Shown here: positions 53,661 to 64,000 of the stretch, one piece after another
Layout of the letters: each line of letters begins with the position of its first letter
How positions within the stretch are numbered: position 1 is the first letter of the stretch
DNA from: Deltaproteobacteria bacterium HGW-Deltaproteobacteria-6
GTDB lineage: Bacteria; Desulfobacterota; Syntrophia; Syntrophales; Smithellaceae
Direction: 5' to 3'
Assembly (NCBI GenBank): GCA_002840435.1
Contig: PHAT01000005.1
Coordinates: 610,460 to 674,459, forward strand
Length of the DNA: 64,000 nt
Made by a program: the position numbers and the translations under genes
The notes under the pieces: model-generated
The model's input: the letters and a program-made list of their open reading frames with translations, nothing else
Told to the model about the DNA's origin: nothing
The model's database searches: none

Positions 53661-55223
53661 TTAACTCCATGCTTTTTCCGCTGCCGCGTTTTTTCCGGCA
53701 ATCCGGCCGAAAATCAGGCAGTCAAGCGTGGCGCAGCTGCCCAGGCGGACCGCACCATGCACACCGCCTGTGACTTCACCGGCCGCATACAAACCGGGGA
53801 TGGGCTTGTCCGTCATGATGTCCGTCGCCTGCGCTTTGACATTCATATTGACGCCGCCCATGCAGTGATGAATCTTGGGTGTGAGCCTGAGAGCATAGTA
53901 GGGACCGGGGCCCAGCGGTTTCTGATTTTTCTGCAAATATCTGCCCCATTCGGCATCCTTGCCGGCCAGAACACCTTTGTTGAATTTTTCAATTTCCCCT
54001 TTCAGGGGTTCCACCGGGCAATCATATGCCGCTGCCATCTGTTCCAGCGTATCATATTTTTTAACCACGCCTCTTTCGATCAATTTCGGCAGGGACTCCG
54101 CAATCAGCTTTTCGCCGAGGGCATAGCCATAGGCATCTGTAAAAGCGATGCATTTATTGCCGACGCGAATGATGGCATCCGCGCGAATTTTACGGTCGGC
54201 CAATTCATTGACAAAGCGTTTGCCGGTTTTGGTGTCAATCCAGAGGCCATACATGGCAGCACAAAGCTGTGCGAAGAAAGGCGACAGTCCCATGCCCTTT
54301 TCATCCGGACTGCCCCACGGACCAAGCTGAATCCAGGAAAGCTGCAGCGGTGTGCAGCCAATGCGCAGGGCTTCGCGCAAACTTTCCGCGGTGGCGCCGG
54401 GCTGATTCGTGCTGGGGAATTCGGCCGTCAGGCGGGGGTCCTGGATGGTTCTGAAGGCGACGTCGTTGCCAAAACCTCCCGTGGCCAGAACGACGGCTTT
54501 TCTGGCCTTGATGTTTTTTGCTTTTCCACTGTCTTTGTTGGGGAAAACATACTTCTCCCGAATCTGAACGCCCTTGACCCGTCCGTCTGCGTCGCGGTAT
54601 ATCTGGGTCAGAAAGCTTTGTGTTTTGGGCACTATGCCCAACTCTTTTAATTTAGCCAGCTGCTGCGTGACGATGGCCGAACCGCTCTGGTTGTAAGTGC
54701 TGTACATCCGGGGAACAGAGTGACCGCCCTCCTGGGAAAGTTTGTCCTTGTACTGAACACCGAGTTCCGTAATGGTCCATTGAACGGTTGAGTTGGAATT
54801 ATCGGCAACCATCTTGGCCAGTTCCACATGATTCAGGTTGAGGCCGGCTGCCAGCATGTCTTTTAACAAGAGTTCCGGTGAATCCTGAATACCCTGTTCT
54901 TTTTCCTTGGGAGAACCTGCCGCGGAGATTACACCGCCGTTGATAATCGAGTTTCCGCCCGGCGTACGCATCTTTTCCAAAACGACAACGGATGCCCCGG
55001 CTTTCTTTGCTTCATAAGCCGCAGCCAGTCCCGCAAATCCGCTGCCGATGACGACCACATCATAAGTTTCGTCCCATTTTTTCGGCAAGGCGGCCGCTTC
55101 CGCTTTCCAGGGCGCCAACGCGACACCGCTTGAGGCCAGCCCGGCGACAGCCGCTACAGTGCCTGCGGATTTTATGAAATTCCGTCTGGTTAATGATTTT
55201 GTGATTTTTTTGTCTTCCGCCAT
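53661..55223 (-). CDS. Tat-exported FAD-dependent reductase, fumarate reductase flavoprotein family (paralogue 1)
   Basis: 520 aa, RBS AGGAGG. The Tat signal TRRNFIKSAG plus a hydrophobic stretch is at the N-terminus. FAD-binding YDVVVIGSGFAGLAAAYEAKKAGA, E...VVLATGGFGN and the capping domain follow. Of the catalytic residues known from Shewanella FccA, the acid Arg (NELADRKIRADAI), the His of IHHCMGGV and the Arg of GAVRLG are kept, but the active-site His in the IQAHP segment is replaced (IQLGPWGSPDEKG) and the TE pair of ITEAVRG is absent. So it is likely a reductase of a C=C bond in a substrate other than fumarate. No haem domain, so a separate cytochrome must donate electrons; a paralogue is at 59867. 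It is divergent from the cytochrome at 55816. Confidence 0.87.
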   Translation of the reverse strand: MAEDKKITKSLTRRNFIKSAGTVAAVAGLASSGVALAPWKAEAAALPKKWDETYDVVVIGSGFAGLAAAYEAKKAGASVVVLEKMRTPGGNSIINGGVISAAGSPKEKEQGIQDSPELLLKDMLAAGLNLNHVELAKMVADNSNSTVQWTITELGVQYKDKLSQEGGHSVPRMYSTYNQSGSAIVTQQLAKLKELGIVPKTQSFLTQIYRDADGRVKGVQIREKYVFPNKDSGKAKNIKARKAVVLATGGFGNDVAFRTIQDPRLTAEFPSTNQPGATAESLREALRIGCTPLQLSWIQLGPWGSPDEKGMGLSPFFAQLCAAMYGLWIDTKTGKRFVNELADRKIRADAIIRVGNKCIAFTDAYGYALGEKLIAESLPKLIERGVVKKYDTLEQMAAAYDCPVEPLKGEIEKFNKGVLAGKDAEWGRYLQKNQKPLGPGPYYALRLTPKIHHCMGGVNMNVKAQATDIMTDKPIPGLYAAGEVTGGVHGAVRLGSCATLDCLIFGRIAGKNAAAEKAWS

Positions 55224-55815
55224 AATTTACCTCCTGATAATTTGTTTCTGTGGTTAGGTTGTTAAAAGACGTTTTCTTGCCATAAAATGACCGAAGATAA
55301 ATTGTAATGACTAAAATCATTATAACTTATCATGATTGAAAATGATTTTGTTAAAAGACCCTGATGCGGTATCCGTGCATGGGAACAGTATTTTGCAGGG
55401 ATAAGACAGCGCCGGAAAATGGATATGATGAGACCAGGCTGAAGAAGAAACAACGAACTGCTATGGCAAAATGACTTAATAATTCTTTTCACAAGTATAA
55501 ACCCTGCGGAGAATGTAGCATAAACGGAAAGAAATGCAAGAATTCCCTTCTGGCCAAATATCCCATGGATAGTCGTTAAATTATTTCCGGCGCCTCTGAC
55601 TTTTATTCGGAAAAAGCCGCAACGGGAAAGAGGCTTGCAATGTCGCCGATTAAATACTAGAATGCGCGGGAAATGATGGAAGACATTATGATGCCCGTCA
55701 ACTGCCAGCGATGCATTAAATTTCCATCCCGATTGATGGATCGCAAATTAAATGAATTTGATGAAAGGTTACCGGCTTAATCAATTCAAAAAACTGCAAT
55801 CTCCGGGAGGTTTCA
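55224..55815. other. 592-nt divergent intergenic region
   Basis: It separates the flavoprotein gene (minus) from the undecahaem cytochrome gene (plus). It has an AT-rich inverted repeat AAAATCAT (55314-55321) / ATGATTTT (55342-55349) near the flavoprotein end and a promoter candidate at 55635-55663. I found no small gene and no recognised RNA. Confidence 0.5.
55635..55663 (+). promoter_or_regulatory. Candidate promoter for the undecahaem cytochrome gene
   Basis: TTGCAA, 17-nt spacer, TAGAAT (five of six at -10). It is ~150 nt before the ATG at 55816. Confidence 0.45.
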
Positions 55816-57063
55816 ATGCGCAATCAACAAATAACCCCTTTCTTTCTAATGCTGATCTTTTTCTTCATTTTTTGTTCAGCCGGCTTCGCTGCTTCTAACA
55901 GCAGTTGTGTGACCTGTCATTCCAATGAATCGCTGATGAAGTCGATGCATAAACCGCCGCCTGCGCCGATGAGTGAAGGAGAGGGGTGAGCGGGCGCTCC
56001 TCCGGCGGTCCGGCCGGAAGAAATGTATAAAGGGTATGTTGTCGATCGTGACCTTCTCAAGAAAGATCAACATTTTATTCTATCGTGTTCCCAGTGTCAT
56101 CGGGGAGACAGTGAAACTTTAAATAAACAAAAGGCCCATCAAGGCCTGATTAAAAGACCTTCGGACAATCTGTCCACCTGCGCGACGTGCCATAAGCCGG
56201 TGACGGACAAGTATGCAAAGTCGCTTCATTACACATTGGCCGGTCAGCGAAACGGGGTGATGCCCCGTTTTTCCAAAGAAGAATTAAAAATATTTGATGA
56301 AAAAGTTTTTGAAAAATCATGCCGCAGTTGCCATGCGTCCTGCGGAGACTGCCACGTCAAGTCTCCGGCCGTAGGCGGCATCAGTACCGGATTGCTGGCC
56401 AAACATAAGTTCGTCAAAAAAGATGAAGGCAAAACCTGTTCGTCGTGCCACGGCGGGCGGGTCTATCCTGAATATACGGGAGAATACGGCGGTGCCCCGG
56501 ATGTTCACTATCAAAAAGGCATGCTGTGCATGGACTGCCACAAGAAGCTGGAATTTCACGGCGACGGTAAGGCGTATGCATCCAAGAATCATGTAAAAGA
56601 TCGTCCGGCCTGCCGCAGCTGCCACAAGGCGGGCGGCGAAAAAAATGCAATGGCTAAAATGTCGCACGAGACGCATCAAGACAAGGTATCCTGCTACGGA
56701 TGCCATGCCGGAGCGGAGTATCGCAACTGTCAGCAATGCCATGCGGGCGAAGGCGCAAAAGCCAATCCGGAAATCATATTAGGGCGCAGTCCGCGGGACA
56801 AAAAAATGCTGACGACTTTGCGGTTGATTCCGACAGTTCGCGACACGTTTGCCAAAGAAGGCATCAAAATGGAGCATTTCGACGCCTTGCCCAATTACTG
56901 GGACACGCCCGCCCACAATATCCGGAAACGGACGGACCGCACCCGTTCCTGCGATGCCTGCCATGTCGAGAAGAAGAATTTTTTAACGAAAGAAAAACTG
57001 ATCAAGGATGGTTCCAGGGCCAATGAAGGCTTAATCTATCATCTTAAGCGAATCAACAAATAA
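55816..57063 (+). CDS. Periplasmic undecahaem c-type cytochrome read across an in-frame UGA (candidate selenoprotein)
   Basis: ATG 55816 (GGGAGG 5 nt upstream) starts a signal peptide (FFLMLIFFFIFCSAGFAAS) and a CVTCH haem site. The frame then meets TGA at 55987-55989 and continues without a break as a cytochrome with ten more CxxCH sites (CSQCH, CATCH, CRSCH, CGDCH, CSSCH, CMDCH, CRSCH, CYGCH, CQQCH, CDACH) to 57063. The junction reads MSEGEG-(UGA)-AGAPPAVRPEEM. The part after the UGA has no signal peptide or proper RBS of its own, so it makes sense only as one protein. A hairpin at 56001-56018 fits a bacterial SECIS, hence selenocysteine at codon 58 is my first reading; a nonsense mutation or sequencing error is the alternative. 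A rhodanese gene follows 16 nt downstream. I recall, without being able to check, that the multihaem cytochrome ExtKL of the selenite/tellurite reduction operons of Geobacter relatives is also read through UGA. Confidence 0.8.
55987..56018 (+). promoter_or_regulatory. UGA codon with SECIS-like hairpin
   Basis: TGA at 55987-55989 is followed after 11 nt by a perfect 6-bp stem TCCGGC (56001-56006) / GCCGGA (56013-56018) with the loop GGTCCG. The loop begins 17 nt after the UGA and has G at its first two positions; its GGUC matches the apical loop of the E. coli fdhF SECIS. I see no clear bulged U in the stem. Confidence 0.6.
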
Positions 57064-57079: not shown

Positions 57080-57973
57080 ATGAGAAATGAAAGATGGTTC
57101 AAAACAGTAATGGTTGTTATTTTGTTCCTTTTGCCGTTAACCGCGCTGGCCGGCAGCATGGATCCCGTTGTCTCTACGGACTGGCTGCAAAATAATCTGA
57201 AGAATGCAAATTTAGTCATCCTGGATATTCGGAAAGTGGAGGAATACAAGGCCGGTCATATTCCCGGTGCGATCAATGTGTTTTATGGTTCCTGGGCGAT
57301 CAAGAAGGGGAGCCTGCTCAATGAACTGCCGCCCGTTGATGATCTGACGGATGTTGTCGGAAACGCGGGCATCGACAAGGATTCACAGGTGGTCATTGTC
57401 GGAAAAACGGATAAAGTTCCCGATCAGTTCGATATGACCCGCGTTGCCTGGACCTTGAAGTATCTGGGCGTGCCCAATGCAGCTATTCTCAATGGCGGCC
57501 AGAATCAATGGGTCAAAGAAAACAAACCTCTCTCGCAGGATATGGCAAAGGCGAAAGCAAAATCTTTCAAAGCTTCCGTTAATCAGGCTTTGTTTGCCGA
57601 TAAGGCCTATGTCCTGGATAAAATAGGCAAGGCCGTCATCGTCGATACCCGAGCGCCGGCTTTCTACCAGGGAAAAGAAAAGCTTGCTTTTGTGCCTAAG
57701 CTGGGCCGAATCAAGGGATCTGTTAATTTGCCGGTGGGCCAATTGTACACTCCGGAGGGTTTATACAAAGACAAGGCCACGCTTGCCGCGTTAGCCGAAA
57801 AAGCAGTGGGGGGCGATCGGAATAAGGAATATATCCTTTATTGCGATACCGGCAAGACTTGTACCTCCTGGGCATTGATCATGGTGGATATGCTGGGATA
57901 TAAAGATGTGAAAGTTTATGATGGTTCGTCCATGGAATGGCTGGCCGATCCGGCAGCTCCCGCCGAACCCTGA
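57080..57973 (+). CDS. Periplasmic two-domain rhodanese-like sulfurtransferase
   Basis: 297 aa. Signal peptide (VVILFLLPLTALAGS), then rhodanese domain 1 with DIRKVEEYKAGHIPGAINV and no active-site Cys loop, then domain 2 with VDTRAPAFYQG and the active-site loop YCDTGKTCTSWAL, where the first Cys is in the catalytic position. Such proteins move sulfane sulfur (or selenium) from a thiosulfate-like donor to an acceptor. Close coupling to the undecahaem cytochrome suggests both act on a sulfur or selenium oxyanion, polysulfide or tellurite in the periplasm. A bidirectional terminator follows. Confidence 0.9.
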   Translation: MRNERWFKTVMVVILFLLPLTALAGSMDPVVSTDWLQNNLKNANLVILDIRKVEEYKAGHIPGAINVFYGSWAIKKGSLLNELPPVDDLTDVVGNAGIDKDSQVVIVGKTDKVPDQFDMTRVAWTLKYLGVPNAAILNGGQNQWVKENKPLSQDMAKAKAKSFKASVNQALFADKAYVLDKIGKAVIVDTRAPAFYQGKEKLAFVPKLGRIKGSVNLPVGQLYTPEGLYKDKATLAALAEKAVGGDRNKEYILYCDTGKTCTSWALIMVDMLGYKDVKVYDGSSMEWLADPAAPAEP

Positions 57974-58049: not shown

Positions 58050-59456
58050 TTATTTCTTTTCCCCAGGATCGCCGGCATAACCCAGATCTTTCCAGTTGAG
58101 TCTGCCGTTCTTGCCGTGGCAGTCGTTACACTTTAGCGCGTTTGCCTTGGGGGCTACCATGTGATTGACCTTCCAGTACATGTCTGTTTCCGCAAAGCCG
58201 TATTTTCCGCTGTAGGGCAGACCTGCGACTTTCATCCCGTCAACCATGGCCTGGCCCCAGTCCCAGTGCTTCCAGTAACCGGCCCACAAATGCGGTACGG
58301 CAAAGACATTGTTTCCCGCATCATATGGCTGTTTACCCCGCATGACTTTAAACGGGGTAATCCTGGCCGTTTTATCATTTCGGTCCCCCCTGGGATAATT
58401 CAGGTGGGTCACTTTTGACGGATCCATCTTTTCTCCCAGAAGATAGCGATCAACGGAGCCATTAAACCAGAAATAAACCGGCTTTTCCTCTTTAGCCCAT
58501 TTAAAGTCGCCTTTCTGCTTGTCATAGAGCGGCTGGCCGTATTGATCTTTCTGGACAGGTCCGTCTTTGCCCGCTGTTGACCAGTCCCACCATATTTTTG
58601 TCGGAAGCGCTTTGGCATAAGTCGGAATGTGGCAGGTCTGGCAGGCAACCCTTTCACTGTGTTTGTTGAGAATGGCATTTTTGCCATGCGGGGTTCCCGC
58701 GTGGCAATCGGAACAGTTGAGCGTCAATCCACTTCCGGTCATGGATACGGAGAGCGCTTTTCCGGGGATGACGTGATTAACGGTTTTATGGCAGGAACTG
58801 CAGTTCATGTTTGCGCCGTCTACGGCCATATGGACATCGATTGAACGTTTGGGGGCTCCCAGAGAACTATCCAGATCCCCATGTTTGATGTGATCGCCTC
58901 CGCCGCCGAAGAAATGGCAGGCTCCGCAGGTCGCTCGACTGGTTGGGCCAACGCTTTTTGCGATCTTTTCCAGATCAAGCGCTTTCCAGATTTTTCCTGA
59001 TTTAGGAGGGAATTCCGTATCCTGATAAGCGGGATGGCCTGATCCTGCGGGAAGCTTTTTATAGCTGCCTGTCTTATCATGGCAAATGAGACAGTCGATG
59101 TTTTCCGGCTTCGAGAAATCGAAAGAATTATCTTTCCAGCCATAGCCCGCATGACAGCTTGTACAACGGGGATTGTTGCTCGGTAAGGCGATACAATAAT
59201 TATTGATGGCGTTCTTCTTGCCGAGTTCGACTTTTCCCTTCCCCTGAACTTCCTGGGTTGTGCTCCATGTCCAGTGAGGCGTTTTCATGAAGTCACCAGC
59301 CTGTTTACCATGACATTGCAGGCACTTTTTCGTGACGTCCGGTCCCGTCTTGAACGGTCCCGAGATAAATTGGGAGTGGTCCTGCGCTGCCGGGGCCACG
59401 CCGGCAAACAGCAGGAATGAAACCATAAATGCAAATATTTTTATGACATGAATCAT
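58050..59456 (-). CDS. Octahaem c-type cytochrome, tetrathionate reductase (OTR) family
   Basis: 468 aa, RBS AGGAGG. Signal peptide (IFAFMVSFLLFAGVAPAA) and eight haem sites: CLQCH, CTSCH, CLICH, CGACH, CSSCH, CSDCH, CQTCH, CNDCH. Length, spacing and the WDWSTAGKDGPV and MDPSKVTHLNYPRGDRNDKTARITPFKVMRGKQPYD segments are characteristic of the Shewanella OTR family, which reduces tetrathionate, nitrite and hydroxylamine in vitro. The substrate in this organism is unknown. It is transcribed alone from a near-consensus promoter on the minus strand. Confidence 0.88.
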   Translation of the reverse strand: MIHVIKIFAFMVSFLLFAGVAPAAQDHSQFISGPFKTGPDVTKKCLQCHGKQAGDFMKTPHWTWSTTQEVQGKGKVELGKKNAINNYCIALPSNNPRCTSCHAGYGWKDNSFDFSKPENIDCLICHDKTGSYKKLPAGSGHPAYQDTEFPPKSGKIWKALDLEKIAKSVGPTSRATCGACHFFGGGGDHIKHGDLDSSLGAPKRSIDVHMAVDGANMNCSSCHKTVNHVIPGKALSVSMTGSGLTLNCSDCHAGTPHGKNAILNKHSERVACQTCHIPTYAKALPTKIWWDWSTAGKDGPVQKDQYGQPLYDKQKGDFKWAKEEKPVYFWFNGSVDRYLLGEKMDPSKVTHLNYPRGDRNDKTARITPFKVMRGKQPYDAGNNVFAVPHLWAGYWKHWDWGQAMVDGMKVAGLPYSGKYGFAETDMYWKVNHMVAPKANALKCNDCHGKNGRLNWKDLGYAGDPGEKK

Positions 59457-59866: not shown

Positions 59867-61420
59867 ATGAAAAAAATCAATCAGACCGAAGAAACGCTCA
59901 GCAGACGGAATTTTCTCAAGACGGCCGGCGGGGTGGCCGCTGTTGCCGGACTGGCCGCAAGCGGCTTGCCTTTAATGACCGGACAGGCCGAAGCGGCATG
60001 CGATGTTCTGCCGAAAAAATGGGATGACACCTACGATGTTGTTGTGGTGGGCAGCGGCTTTGCGGGTCTGGCCGCCGCCATTGAAGCGAAAAATGCGGGA
60101 GCCAGTGTTCTGGTCATCGAAAAGATGCCGCTTCATGGAGGCAACTCCATCATTAACGGCGGCGATTTTTGCGCGCCCGGCACGAAGCTGCAGCAGGAAA
60201 ACGGCGTTCAGGACTCGGCGGAGCTGATGTTAAAAGATATGCTCAAGGCGGGGGCTTATCTGAATCATCCCGACCTGGCCAAAATTGTGGCCTACGGGGC
60301 CAGGGGAGCATTGGAATGGACGGAAACATACATTGGCGCCAAATATACCAAACTCAATTATCACGGCGGCCACTCCGTCAAGAGGGCCCATGGAACAATC
60401 AACTCCTCGGGTTCGGAACTGGTCAACAAAGAACTGTCCAAAGCCAAAGAAATCGGCGTGAAAATTCAAATGCGCACCAGGCTGGTCAAATTCCTTTCCA
60501 ACAAAGAGGGCCGAATCGTCGGCCTGGAAGTGCGGAAGGATTACAAATTTCCCGATGATCGTTCGGGCAAGACAGCCTTTATCAAGGCGAAGAGAGCCGT
60601 CGTGCTGAGTTCAGGCGGTTTTTCCAGAGATTTGAAATTGCGTCAGGTGCATGACCCCCGCCTCACGGACAGGTTCGAATCCACTAATCAGCCGGGCGCT
60701 ACCGGCGAAGCATTGCTGGCAGCGTGCAAGGCCGGCGCGATGGATGTCCAGATGGACTGGATTCAGCTGGGCCCCTGGACAAGCCCGGATGAAAAGGGAT
60801 TCGGTTATGTGCCGCTCTTTTGTGAACGGCTGGTCGGATACGGCCCGATGATCAATCCCAAGACAGGCAAACGATTCTTCAAGGAAACGGGAAACCGCAA
60901 GGAACGCGCCGATGCCATCATCCTGGTTGGCGACCCGGTCATTATTATGGGCGATTCTTACGCCGTCAGGAAACAGATCTTTCCCAAGGCGCTCGAAAAA
61001 GGGATGGAAGCGGGAGCTATCAAGAAGTTTGATTCGCTGGACGCCGTGGCGAAGGAATACCATATTGCCGTTGATGTTTTCCTTAAAGAAATCGAACGCT
61101 GGAATTCCTTTGTGGAAAAGAAAAAGGACGATGATTTTGACTGTATGATCTTCAAGGACGCCAAACCGACCGTTGAAGCGCCTTTTTATGCCGCAAGACT
61201 CTGGCCCAAGGTTCATCATACGATGGGTGGACTGAACATCGATCAGGACGCTCAGGTTATCGGATTTGATTTTAAGCCGGTGAAGGGTCTTTACGCGGCA
61301 GGCGAGGTGACCGGCGGCGTGCATGGCGCCGTGCGGCTGGGTGGCGTGGCCATGGCGGATTGTATCGTCTTCGGCCGTATTGCCGGAAAAAGCGCAGCTA
61401 AAGAAAAACCGTGGGGTTAA
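59867..61420 (+). CDS. Tat-exported FAD-dependent reductase, fumarate reductase flavoprotein family (paralogue 2)
   Basis: 517 aa from ATG 59867, 7 nt after AGGAGGG; the open frame further upstream lacks an RBS. Tat signal SRRNFLKTAG, FAD motif YDVVVVGSGFAGLAAAIEAKNAGA, and RAVVLSSGGFSRD. Catalytic Arg in GNRKERADAI, His in VHHTMGGL, Arg in GAVRLGG are kept; the fumarate-specific His is replaced by Gly in IQLGPWTSPDEKG and the TE pair is missing. It is clearly paralogous to the product of 53661-55223 over the whole length. Downstream are a hexahaem cytochrome, an NrfD protein and a Tat-exported 4[4Fe-4S] protein, so it is likely the catalytic subunit of a quinol-linked periplasmic reductase with unknown organic acceptor. 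Confidence 0.88.
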   Translation: MKKINQTEETLSRRNFLKTAGGVAAVAGLAASGLPLMTGQAEAACDVLPKKWDDTYDVVVVGSGFAGLAAAIEAKNAGASVLVIEKMPLHGGNSIINGGDFCAPGTKLQQENGVQDSAELMLKDMLKAGAYLNHPDLAKIVAYGARGALEWTETYIGAKYTKLNYHGGHSVKRAHGTINSSGSELVNKELSKAKEIGVKIQMRTRLVKFLSNKEGRIVGLEVRKDYKFPDDRSGKTAFIKAKRAVVLSSGGFSRDLKLRQVHDPRLTDRFESTNQPGATGEALLAACKAGAMDVQMDWIQLGPWTSPDEKGFGYVPLFCERLVGYGPMINPKTGKRFFKETGNRKERADAIILVGDPVIIMGDSYAVRKQIFPKALEKGMEAGAIKKFDSLDAVAKEYHIAVDVFLKEIERWNSFVEKKKDDDFDCMIFKDAKPTVEAPFYAARLWPKVHHTMGGLNIDQDAQVIGFDFKPVKGLYAAGEVTGGVHGAVRLGGVAMADCIVFGRIAGKSAAKEKPWG

Positions 61421-61552: not shown

Positions 61553-62107
61553 ATGAAGAATAAGAACATAAAATATTTGCTCATGACCTTTTCACTGGTT
61601 GCATTGCTGGCGGTGTTTTTTGCCGGCGGTCTTGATGCCGCGCCTAAAGAGAAGAAAGCGGCCGCCTCCAAGTCAAAGACCATCACCGTAAAAGCATGGG
61701 ATTGTGCGGGTTGTCATAAAGACAAGAAAGTGCTTCCGGAAAATCACATAGCGATCAAGGAAATGCCTTATACAGGCTGTCTGGTTTGCCATGTGGCGGG
61801 CGAAGGGAAGGCCGGTACATTAAAGGGCAAGGTTCCGGGCAGCCACCTGCATGCTCTTAAAGGTGTGCAGTGCGCACAATGCCACGGCAAAGTAAAGAAA
61901 CCGGCTCCGGTGGAAATGGCCAAGTGCTTGGCCTGTCACGGCGCAACGGCGAAGCTGGCCGAAAAAACGGCGAAAGTCAAACCGAGCAATCCTCACGAAT
62001 CGCCGCATTACGGGACGGATGCCGACTGCAATCTCTGTCATCATCAGCATGCCAGGTCGGAGAATCTTTGCGCCCAGTGCCATAAGTTTGATTTTATCGT
62101 TCCGTAA
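61553..62107 (+). CDS. Periplasmic hexahaem c-type cytochrome
   Basis: 184 aa with a signal peptide (LMTFSLVALLAVFFAGGLDAA). Six CxxCH sites: CAGCH, CLVCH, CAQCH, CLACH, CNLCH, CAQCH, with many single His residues that could serve as distal ligands (GSHLHALKG, NPHESPHYG). The pattern resembles the cytochrome c7/c3 and flavocytochrome c haem domains, that is, the haem part which in Shewanella FccA is fused to the flavin subunit. It most likely carries electrons to the flavoprotein encoded upstream. Confidence 0.88.
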   Translation: MKNKNIKYLLMTFSLVALLAVFFAGGLDAAPKEKKAAASKSKTITVKAWDCAGCHKDKKVLPENHIAIKEMPYTGCLVCHVAGEGKAGTLKGKVPGSHLHALKGVQCAQCHGKVKKPAPVEMAKCLACHGATAKLAEKTAKVKPSNPHESPHYGTDADCNLCHHQHARSENLCAQCHKFDFIVP

Positions 62108-62144
62108 ACTGAAGTTGATCTGAGCCGACATAAGGAAAAAGATC

Positions 62145-63389
62145 ATGGTGCGTTCGGAAGAATCAGCATGGATGGGATGTGTTAAGGATGCAGCGGGCCG
62201 CGTAATAAACGGCGGTCCGCTGTATTTTGTCTTTTTAATTTTTTTTACTCTTCTCTTCCTCGCCGGTGTCGTTTCCGGCGTTTATTCCCTGTTTATTGCA
62301 GGCAGCCGCCATGCTTACGGCACCTTCCGGGAGATCCCGCTGGCGCTGCTCATTGCCACATACATTTTCTTTGTTGTGGCATCCACCGGGCTTTGTCTGG
62401 TTTCTTCCATCGGACACGTGTTCGGCAACCGAGACTTTCTGCCGATTGCCAAACGTTCCGTCCTTCTGGCTTTAATTACGATCATATCCGGTTTTCTGGT
62501 GATCGGGCTGGAAATCGAAAATCCCTTCCGGATGATGATTTACTTTTTTACATCGCCTAATTTTTCCTCCAACATCTGGTGGATGGGCGCCCTTTACATG
62601 ATGTACATGATTTTTATGGCAATAGAATTTGTTCTGCTCCTGCGCGAATCTCATCGCGTCGCTGCCTTTTTCGGGTTCCTGAGCGTCGCCTTCGGTGTGG
62701 CCGCGCATAGCAATCTGGGCGGTATTTTTGCCATGCTGCATGGCCGGGATCTCTGGTATGGTCCGTTCCTCCCTGTTTATTTCATTATATCGGCAATGAT
62801 GACGGGCAGCGCTTTCATTATCTTTTTCAGTATCGTGGCGCAAAAGCTCCGCAAACAGGCCATGGAAGAGGATGAGAAAAAATCGCTTTTACTGGTCAGT
62901 AAGCTGGCCATGCTGATGATTGCCGCCGTTATGTTTATGACGATCTGGAAGATGATCACGATAACCACGGCCGGTGCAACGCTTCTGATCACCATTTATG
63001 AAATGATCAGCGGAGCGCATGCCTTCAACTTCTGGGTATTGGAGGTGACTTGCGGCATGGTCATTCCTTTTTTTCTGTTTTTGCTTTCCGGGGGCCGGAA
63101 GCAAAGCTTGATGATTGTTGCCGCGAGCTTTATGATCTTCAGTATCTTCTTCATGCGTCTGGATCTGGTGGTGACTGCACAAATTGTTCCTCTTTACTGG
63201 GAACTGGGCGTCAAAGAGTTTTCTCAATTGCTTACTTATACTCCCACGTGGAGAGAAATCCTGGTTGCCATGGGGGGTGCCGGCTTTTGCGGGATGGCGT
63301 TTTTACTGGGGGAAAAGATATTCAACGGTTTTGGCGATGTCCGTTGTGATGAGCCGGTCGAAAACGGAAAGACTGAGAGTGAACCATGA
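62145..63389 (+). CDS. NrfD/PsrC-family integral membrane quinol oxidoreductase subunit
   Basis: 414 aa with about ten membrane helices (for example FVFLIFFTLLFLAGVVSGVYSLF and WWMGALYMMYMIFMAIEFVLLL) and no haem-ligand pattern typical of b-type cytochromes. NrfD/PsrC proteins carry the quinone site and pass electrons to a periplasmic Fe-S partner. ATG 62145 has AAGGAAAA upstream. It begins 37 nt after the cytochrome gene and overlaps the next gene by ATGA, so both are translationally coupled. Confidence 0.9.
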   Translation: MVRSEESAWMGCVKDAAGRVINGGPLYFVFLIFFTLLFLAGVVSGVYSLFIAGSRHAYGTFREIPLALLIATYIFFVVASTGLCLVSSIGHVFGNRDFLPIAKRSVLLALITIISGFLVIGLEIENPFRMMIYFFTSPNFSSNIWWMGALYMMYMIFMAIEFVLLLRESHRVAAFFGFLSVAFGVAAHSNLGGIFAMLHGRDLWYGPFLPVYFIISAMMTGSAFIIFFSIVAQKLRKQAMEEDEKKSLLLVSKLAMLMIAAVMFMTIWKMITITTAGATLLITIYEMISGAHAFNFWVLEVTCGMVIPFFLFLLSGGRKQSLMIVAASFMIFSIFFMRLDLVVTAQIVPLYWELGVKEFSQLLTYTPTWREILVAMGGAGFCGMAFLLGEKIFNGFGDVRCDEPVENGKTESEP

Positions 63390-64000
63390 TTTTCAAGCCG
63401 TTTGACACAGAAAAAATATTGGAAAAATCCGAAAAGATTTCCGAGATGGATCGCCGGAGATTTTTAAAAATCGGTTTCGCGATTACCGGTGTGTTTGCGG
63501 GAGGCTCAATTGTGTCGCTCGTATCCGCCGCTGAAAAAATATTCCCCCCCGGGTCCTTTATGGACAGGTATCCTTATAAACCACACTACTGTATGGTGGT
63601 CCGCGTGGACCAGTGCATCGGCTGCCGCCGCTGCATGAGAGGCTGCATTGACACCAATCATGTGCCGGACTATGGCTGGCGTACGCTCGTCCTGGAAAGG
63701 GAAGTTCCGCTGGCGATCGGACAGAAGAGGGAATTTATCCCGGTGCTTTGCAATCAGTGCAATAATCCGCCCTGCGTCCGCGCTTGCCCCGTGGTTGCGA
63801 CATACAAGGATAAAGCAAACGGCATTGTCATGATGGATAACAAAAAGTGCATCGGCTGTAAAATCTGCATGGTGGCCTGCCCGTACGATGCCCGGTATTT
63901 CAACGAGGAAAAGCACGCTATCGACAAATGCGATTTTTGCTTTGAATCAAGGCTTTCACGCGGCGAGAAAAACGTTGCCTGTTCGGTGGCGTGTCCGGCG
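63386..64000 (+). CDS. Tat-exported 4x[4Fe-4S] ferredoxin-like subunit (DsrO/PsrB/NrfC type), 3' truncated
   Basis: The frame is open to the right edge (205 codons visible). A Tat motif DRRRFLKIGFAITG is at the N-terminus. Cys motifs are CIGCRRCMRGC, CNQCNNPPCVRAC, CIGCKICMVACPYD, and CDFCFESR...CSVACP, enough for four [4Fe-4S] clusters. This is the usual partner of NrfD/PsrC proteins and transfers electrons from the membrane subunit to a periplasmic cytochrome or reductase. The start overlaps the NrfD stop. The C-terminus is beyond the window. Confidence 0.92.
   Translation, partial: MIFKPFDTEKILEKSEKISEMDRRRFLKIGFAITGVFAGGSIVSLVSAAEKIFPPGSFMDRYPYKPHYCMVVRVDQCIGCRRCMRGCIDTNHVPDYGWRTLVLEREVPLAIGQKREFIPVLCNQCNNPPCVRACPVVATYKDKANGIVMMDNKKCIGCKICMVACPYDARYFNEEKHAIDKCDFCFESRLSRGEKNVACSVACPA

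Follow-up and report, generated by a model that had tools for sequence, protein, structure and literature searches.

Positions 55816 to 57063 of the window, by which we mean the whole stretch of 64,000 nucleotides that was analysed, appear to encode one exported undecahaem c-type cytochrome with selenocysteine (Sec) at UGA codon 58. On the sequence evidence set out below, we give this full reading a probability of about 0.92, and the narrower prediction that UGA codon 58 is read as Sec is slightly safer still. The prediction follows from a conserved UGA with conserved flanks, a SECIS-like structure with compensatory changes and the presence of the Sec machinery, and the cytochrome is very probably a selenoprotein. 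All the evidence is genome-derived, mostly from MAGs.

The cytochrome gene and its reading frame

The translation of 55816-57063 contains a single in-frame TGA in 415 codons and ends with TAA at 57061-57063. It holds eleven CXXCH motifs, one 5' of the TGA and ten 3' of it, in agreement with the preliminary description, which had seen one frame broken only by the TGA at 55987. For this reading, the list of open reading frames (≥100 aa) gives only a 346-codon frame from 56023. The 346-aa product lacks a hydrophobic leader, as had been said of the downstream part taken alone, and the ATG at 56023 is, judging from the sequence, probably not the real start of the cytochrome. Homologues align over the full length of the 55816-57063 reading and continue through the TGA with a conserved motif; the TGA is neither a universal stop nor a universal start. 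Pfam detects cytochrome c7/c3 repeats in the read-through protein, and no NCBIfam model scores above its own cut-off for it. The mapped parts, all on the + strand, are as follows.

55805..55810, +: GGGAGG, Shine-Dalgarno-like, before the ATG (by eye)
55816..57063, +: predicted Sec-containing undecahaem cytochrome gene (415 residues, Sec at 58, TAA stop)
55816..55890, +: likely signal peptide MRNQQITPFFLMLIFFFIFCSAGFA (hydrophobic N-terminus, boundary estimated by eye)
55906..55920, +: first haem site CVTCH, 5' of the UGA (C31, C34 and H35 in 124/124 homologues)
55987..55989, +: in-frame TGA, predicted Sec codon 58 (U in 121/124 distinct homologues)
56001..56018, +: SECIS-like hairpin TCCGGC-GGTCCG-GCCGGA, loop 56007-56012 (comparison and published model)
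56023..57063, +: conventional ORF from an internal ATG, ten haem sites, leaderless (ORF list)
57080..57973, +: two-domain rhodanese (PF00581, two stretches), leader-like N-terminus (by eye)

Probable recoding of the UGA: homologues, hairpin and Sec machinery

We pooled 168 fetched loci, a selection from the matches found (L002 being the window's own), and kept one row per distinct haem region, which gave 124 distinct homologues. L029 (weak, 27% over part), L217 (a fragment without the region) and L218 (the wrong stretch) were left out, as were fragments not reaching residue 58 and a weak relative in genome G093. In the Sec column, 121 rows have U, one Ala, one Trp and one Tyr, and Gly directly precedes this column in 124/124. 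Rows as distant as ~30-35% identity to the window protein carry the TGA in the same column, so its recurrence goes beyond chance. Cys occupies the column in 0/124 distinct homologues; Cys-containing homologues are usual for selenoproteins without defining them. Most homologues share the motif G-U-[A/G]-G, and GEGUAGAPPPV is the majority form of the wider motif; a distant set reads GEGUGGAVAPLEP, and a further set VAGUGVSAPQ. In a scan of named genomes, which yielded at least 561 confirmed relatives, the best 80 were used; 80/80 have one in-frame TGA and the same motif, these loci being the closest matches and hence biased toward likeness to the query.

On a quick tree built with the Sec region left out, the three rows without TGA represent three separate changes, L208 sitting on a long branch of unsure placement. 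L042 (Ala, GCA; G132) and L043 (Trp, TGG; G063) retain the hairpin, and their codons reflect either a recent loss or change or an assembly error. In the lists from the order and phylum searches, we found no full-length match without TGA beyond these three. The G093 relative (26%, E 1.2e-9) has the surrounding region without Sec; it corresponds to 2663-3211 of L046 (G093:C37:4162-4710), adjoins the main copy, has few haem sites and a TAA end, and is perhaps a degenerate duplicate. Another stop is present in 15/124 rows. L150 has a TAG 5' of the TGA, and most of the other extra stops likely lie in the 10 and 5 residues by which the sequences were extended past the profile match.

The read-through protein finds matches (E ≤0.001) in 25/51 genomes of the host's taxonomic family and in 68/155 genomes of its order, counts that include short, weak matches. 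With the A1 profile (E ≤1e-20), 54/395 genomes of an even phylum sample are hit, and in six of the 54 the only matches are short, weak and away from the Sec region; seven weakly matching frames of ~360 aa (G164, G226, G258, G325, G336, G364, G232) align to the profile only from position ~147 onward. Judged by record titles, the best 80 of the at least 561 named relatives include Syntrophales, Syntrophorhabdales, Geobacter sp. OR-1, another Geobacteraceae and Desulfonema magnum, as well as Spirochaetota and one Rokubacteria MAG. Some loci (L020-L026) have six extra haem sites at the N-terminus, giving 17 CXXCH in total; L106, L124, L129, L130, L137 and L141 are apparently the same genes as these.

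Downstream of the UGA, the window carries a hairpin with a 6 bp stem and a 6 nt loop, GGUCCG (-14.0 kcal/mol), which starts 11 nt past the UGA and has its loop at 17 nt. It falls within the bSECIS rules as stated in PMC13188914, namely a 4-16 bp stem, a loop of 3-9 nt whose first two places have G, a 16-37 nt spacing and an MFE of -7.5 or lower. We compared 98 distinct family sequences gap-free from the TGA onward. The same rules hold for 73/98 of them, against 63/1200 (5%) control stretches from the same genes, and 25/98 fail them under MFE folding. Third codon positions +12 (U 90/98), +24 (G 97/98) and +27 (G 93/98), where the protein sequence imposes little constraint, are near-fixed, unlike the variable third positions +3, +6 and +9. 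In addition, loop positions +19/+20 are GU in 91/91 main-form sequences.

Pairs were counted on 91 of the 98 sequences, L027, L028 and L044-L048 being left out for a shifted or different stem (L044-L048 passed the bSECIS rule test, while L027 and L028 did not). Over 86 distinct rows, 94.0% of cells are paired, against 34-63% in slid versions of the hairpin. Two-sided changes occur in three of the six pairs, for example G-C to A-U and U-A (columns 18/29) and C-G to G-C (columns 19/28), and none of 500 shuffles reached as high a covariation score, although kinship of the sequences may inflate such scores. Two-sided cells are more numerous in two slid controls (22 and 13, against 9 in the hairpin), which have fewer pairs and lower pairing. 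Of the six pairs, four are retained in the RNAalifold consensus, which also has an additional small stem on the 5' side. Against synonymous recodings, the family (n=98) has a mean z of -1.02 and 400 control stretches one of -0.02. The window's own fold is unremarkable in stability (z -0.76 over 91 nt, -0.79 over the 33 nt after the UGA), hence the SECIS case rests on the family. In a distant set the stem is unrelated, UGGCUCC-GUU-GGAGCCA being one case, and GU stands there at almost the same spacing. L027 and L028 are a second copy (~47% identical), their genomes carrying the main form as well; the TGA is kept and the putative SECIS stem lies in a shifted register.

The host genome contains the whole Sec machinery: selA (501 bits), selB (364.8 bits, cut-off 242.25), tRNA-Sec (62.5 bits, gathering 47) and selD (373 bits), the last with an in-frame TGA of its own. 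Because the tRNA-Sec model also scored above cut-off in 5/14 control genomes, we ran ARAGORN as a check, and it called a tRNA-SeC with anticodon tca (UCA). Since selB is above cut-off in 142/155 genomes of the order, that is, nearly all have the machinery, co-occurrence of gene and machinery within the order is uninformative. The preliminary description had put forward a candidate Sec cytochrome, to be examined by aligning homologues and searching for the sel genes. Both lines, together with the hairpin, now support it, the alignment through Sec codons and not through Cys.

Three other explanations of the UGA were weighed. The one that survives best, and is still very improbable, is a conserved operon of two proteins, a one-haem secreted peptide followed by a ten-haem protein restarting at ATG 56023, an alternative raised earlier for ExtKL (PMC1914089, in the part that treats this protein). 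GGAAG does stand a few bases 5' of that ATG (by eye), but an ATG occurs at this place in only 46/121 TGA-bearing homologues, and the region from codon +9 to +16 offers a possible start (ATG, GTG or TTG) in 64/121. Furthermore, the ten-haem part would be leaderless, protein-level conservation is continuous across the TGA, a SECIS-like hairpin lies 3' of it, and in all 124 rows the Sec column shows either TGA or a sense codon, with no TAA or TAG. Even less credible is a recoded genetic code, with UGA decoded as Trp or passed by unspecific read-through: the TGG in the column of L043 would fit it, whereas the restriction to one TGA per gene, always in the same column among the best 80 of the at least 561 named relatives, the complete Sec machinery and the hairpin do not. 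Moreover, TGA ends 3/10 neighbouring genes (the rhodanese, the NrfD-like gene and 50424) and 12/45 long ORFs of the window, and TGG is in use in the neighbouring genes. Finally, a nonsense mutation, pseudogene or sequencing error in the host, which a lone stop within an open frame of a 53-contig draft genome might suggest, is refuted by the homologues, which share the TGA across many independent assemblies and conserve the residues on either side of it.

Gene neighbourhood and possible function

The rhodanese gene at 57080-57973 starts 16 nt past the cytochrome, and Cys255 of its product stands in the active-site position. Two of the 80 named loci had too little sequence; in the 78 that could be tested, a rhodanese starts ≤200 nt downstream in 60, and its active-site Cys is retained in 60/60. 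This adjacency suggests periplasmic sulphur or selenium chemistry. No rhodanese lies directly downstream in the remaining 18/78, including the nearest relatives L074-L076, in which flavocytochrome-c-like FAD proteins flank the gene; similar ones stand further out in the window. There, FAD proteins that resemble the flavin portion of flavocytochrome c (53661-55223 on the - strand and 59867-61420 on the + strand) flank the Sec cytochrome and have twin-arginine-like leaders, one by PF10518 and one by eye; L074-L076 keep both. Further genes follow downstream in 15-17 of 81 clustered loci: an eight-haem cytochrome of 662 aa, another rhodanese, and a cytochrome with nine haems and a b561-like part, one representative of each having been annotated.

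A TIGR04315 octahaem cytochrome without Sec (58050-59456, - strand, 609 bits) lies 1 kb from the Sec cytochrome. At 61553-64000 (+ strand), consecutive genes encode a six-haem cytochrome, an NrfD-like membrane protein and a DsrO/TtrB-like 4Fe-4S protein; they may specify a quinol-linked complex, truncated by the end of the window. In Geobacter sp. OR-1 (L122, 9116-10063), an ArsP-like permease (PF03773) is found downstream of the rhodanese gene, a possible metal or metalloid context. In Desulfonema magnum (L138, 4938-5480), a single-domain rhodanese lies upstream, with none directly downstream of the cytochrome.

We propose the following course of synthesis. Translation would start at 55816; SelB with Sec-tRNA-Sec would bind the hairpin and insert Sec at UGA 58, and the protein would be exported and loaded with eleven haems. 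Under selenium shortage, a 57-residue one-haem peptide may be made instead. The Sec, in the Gly-rich GEGUAGAPP between haems 1 and 2, may lie in an exposed loop and form a redox-active site that draws electrons from the haem chain. The rhodanese could present a persulphide or perselenide, which the Sec would attack while the haem chain gives electrons. A chalcogen substrate fits the common rhodanese neighbour. That the Sec cytochrome and the rhodanese of the same operon act on sulphane sulphur, polysulphide or a selenium or tellurium oxyanion is a tentative proposal, to which we give somewhat less than even odds; by analogy, the ext operon of Geobacter may offer a functional parallel.

Haem ligation was considered on the 124 rows. 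Nine His outside CXXCH are invariant (H86, H108, H138, H197, H231, H248, H284, H287 and H367), and Met236 is found in 116/124. With nine invariant His for eleven CXXCH haems, at least one haem may lack a His partner. It is conceivable, if rather unlikely, that the Sec58 selenolate binds or adjoins a haem iron, as axial ligand or catalytic residue, in a natural selenolate-haem centre; such a centre, if real, would work with the rhodanese on sulphane sulphur or selenium. AlphaFold2 (72 rows) returned a model with mean pLDDT 76.7 and pTM 0.69, the Sec block 51-60 having a mean pLDDT of 53 and residues 52-54 falling below 50. Foldseek gave 0 matches at E ≤0.001 in the PDB with this haem-free model, which may be expected of a haem-packed protein modelled without its haems. 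By sequence, the PDB yielded partial matches alone, to four sequences (best E 2.2e-6).

Relation to known selenocysteine cytochromes

The preliminary description had pointed to a similar case in the ext (selenite/tellurite) operons of Geobacter relatives. This is right in so far as ExtKL (GSU2937-2936 of Geobacter sulfurreducens) has been proposed as a Sec cytochrome in the relevant parts of PMC1914089 and PMC5877670; the undecahaem gene itself is not ExtKL. PMC5877670 describes this cluster as containing a rhodanese and cytochromes along with ExtKL, and reports impaired reduction of selenite and tellurite when extI is lost. Membership of the undecahaem cytochrome in the ExtKL family is barely tenable. 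Both are multihaem c-type proteins with a predicted Sec, in clusters with a rhodanese and other cytochromes, and the rhodanese here is weakly like ExtH (82.8 bits, cut-off 200), but NF040886, the ExtKL model, gives no match to the undecahaem cytochrome even at E ≤10 (cut-off 250 bits). In seven ExtKL loci, five haems precede a Sec at about residue 310-355, whereas here Sec58 lies between the first two of eleven haems; L190 and L207 were left out of this seven-locus reading, L190 being counted in the later motif set. The Sec motif is AGHxIPDG-U-P in 17/20 ExtKL loci, against GEGUAGAPP here; L199 (TGHAIPDGUP), L203 and L207 do not match that pattern. Thus, the null with NF040886, the haem count, and the position and motif of the Sec rule ExtKL membership out.

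The genomic distributions also differ: among 395 phylum genomes, 54 match the undecahaem profile, 40 match ExtKL and one matches both. That the two seldom share a genome (1/395) may be explained by shared genome ancestry. NF040886 was above cut-off in 0/155 genomes of the order, and ExtKL in 0/6 genomes reached through named loci. In the phylum sample, no stop interrupts five full-length NF040886 matches (in genomes including G187, G358, G432 and G476), so non-Sec members seem to exist within ExtKL.

We could not find a description of the undecahaem Sec family in the main texts of the open-licence literature, where it is apparently undescribed; PMC6687939, considered as a candidate, was rejected, as its relevant passages concern a formate dehydrogenase and an OmcS-like cytochrome. 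Among multihaem or CXXCH entries, the pertinent part of a 2026 review (PMC13188914) names ExtKL, the GSU2204 family and a TIGR04315 octahaem form, the Sec form of the last being given as GenBank-annotated; by NCBIfam search, the undecahaem cytochrome is none of the three. As no Cys form was found, the family is hard to detect by searches for Cys/Sec pairs. The authors of deep-Sep state, in their remarks on this point, that it may miss selenoproteins without Cys homologues (PMC12013277), and a limit of this type would explain why the family was overlooked. Gene callers that stop at UGA would report a leaderless ten-haem ORF or nothing. Isolate-type names among the relatives, Geobacter sp. OR-1 and Desulfonema magnum 4be13, make the selenium-haem chemistry and the rhodanese link testable.

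Several known systems resemble the undecahaem cytochrome in part. The TIGR04315 octahaem tetrathionate reductase family is likewise multihaem, with a Sec variant reported in the review's entry for it (PMC13188914), and differs in that the undecahaem cytochrome does not match its model (cut-off 375 bits). ExtM, ExtN and ExtO (NF040943, NF040967 and NF040968) give weak partial matches over the haem repeats, at 34-37 bits, far below cut-offs of 200-800 bits. The Tso rhodanese/DsbD selenoprotein (NF045694) and the rhodanese-related (seleno)protein (NF041203) likewise bring together selenium and a rhodanese; in these, according to the table of the same review, the Sec is in the rhodanese protein, whereas here the rhodanese keeps its Cys and the Sec would be in the cytochrome. 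ExtKL is also multihaem c-type with a predicted Sec and, in the account of its cluster, a rhodanese and cytochromes nearby (PMC5877670). It differs by its five haems followed by the Sec and by the lack of any sequence match, and its 2007 prediction reports, where it treats this protein, neither a SECIS nor, at that time, non-Sec homologues (PMC1914089). The family described here would stand beside ExtKL as a distinct, second family of Sec multihaem cytochromes, with stronger sequence evidence and a spread over Desulfobacterota-type bacteria, Spirochaetota and beyond.
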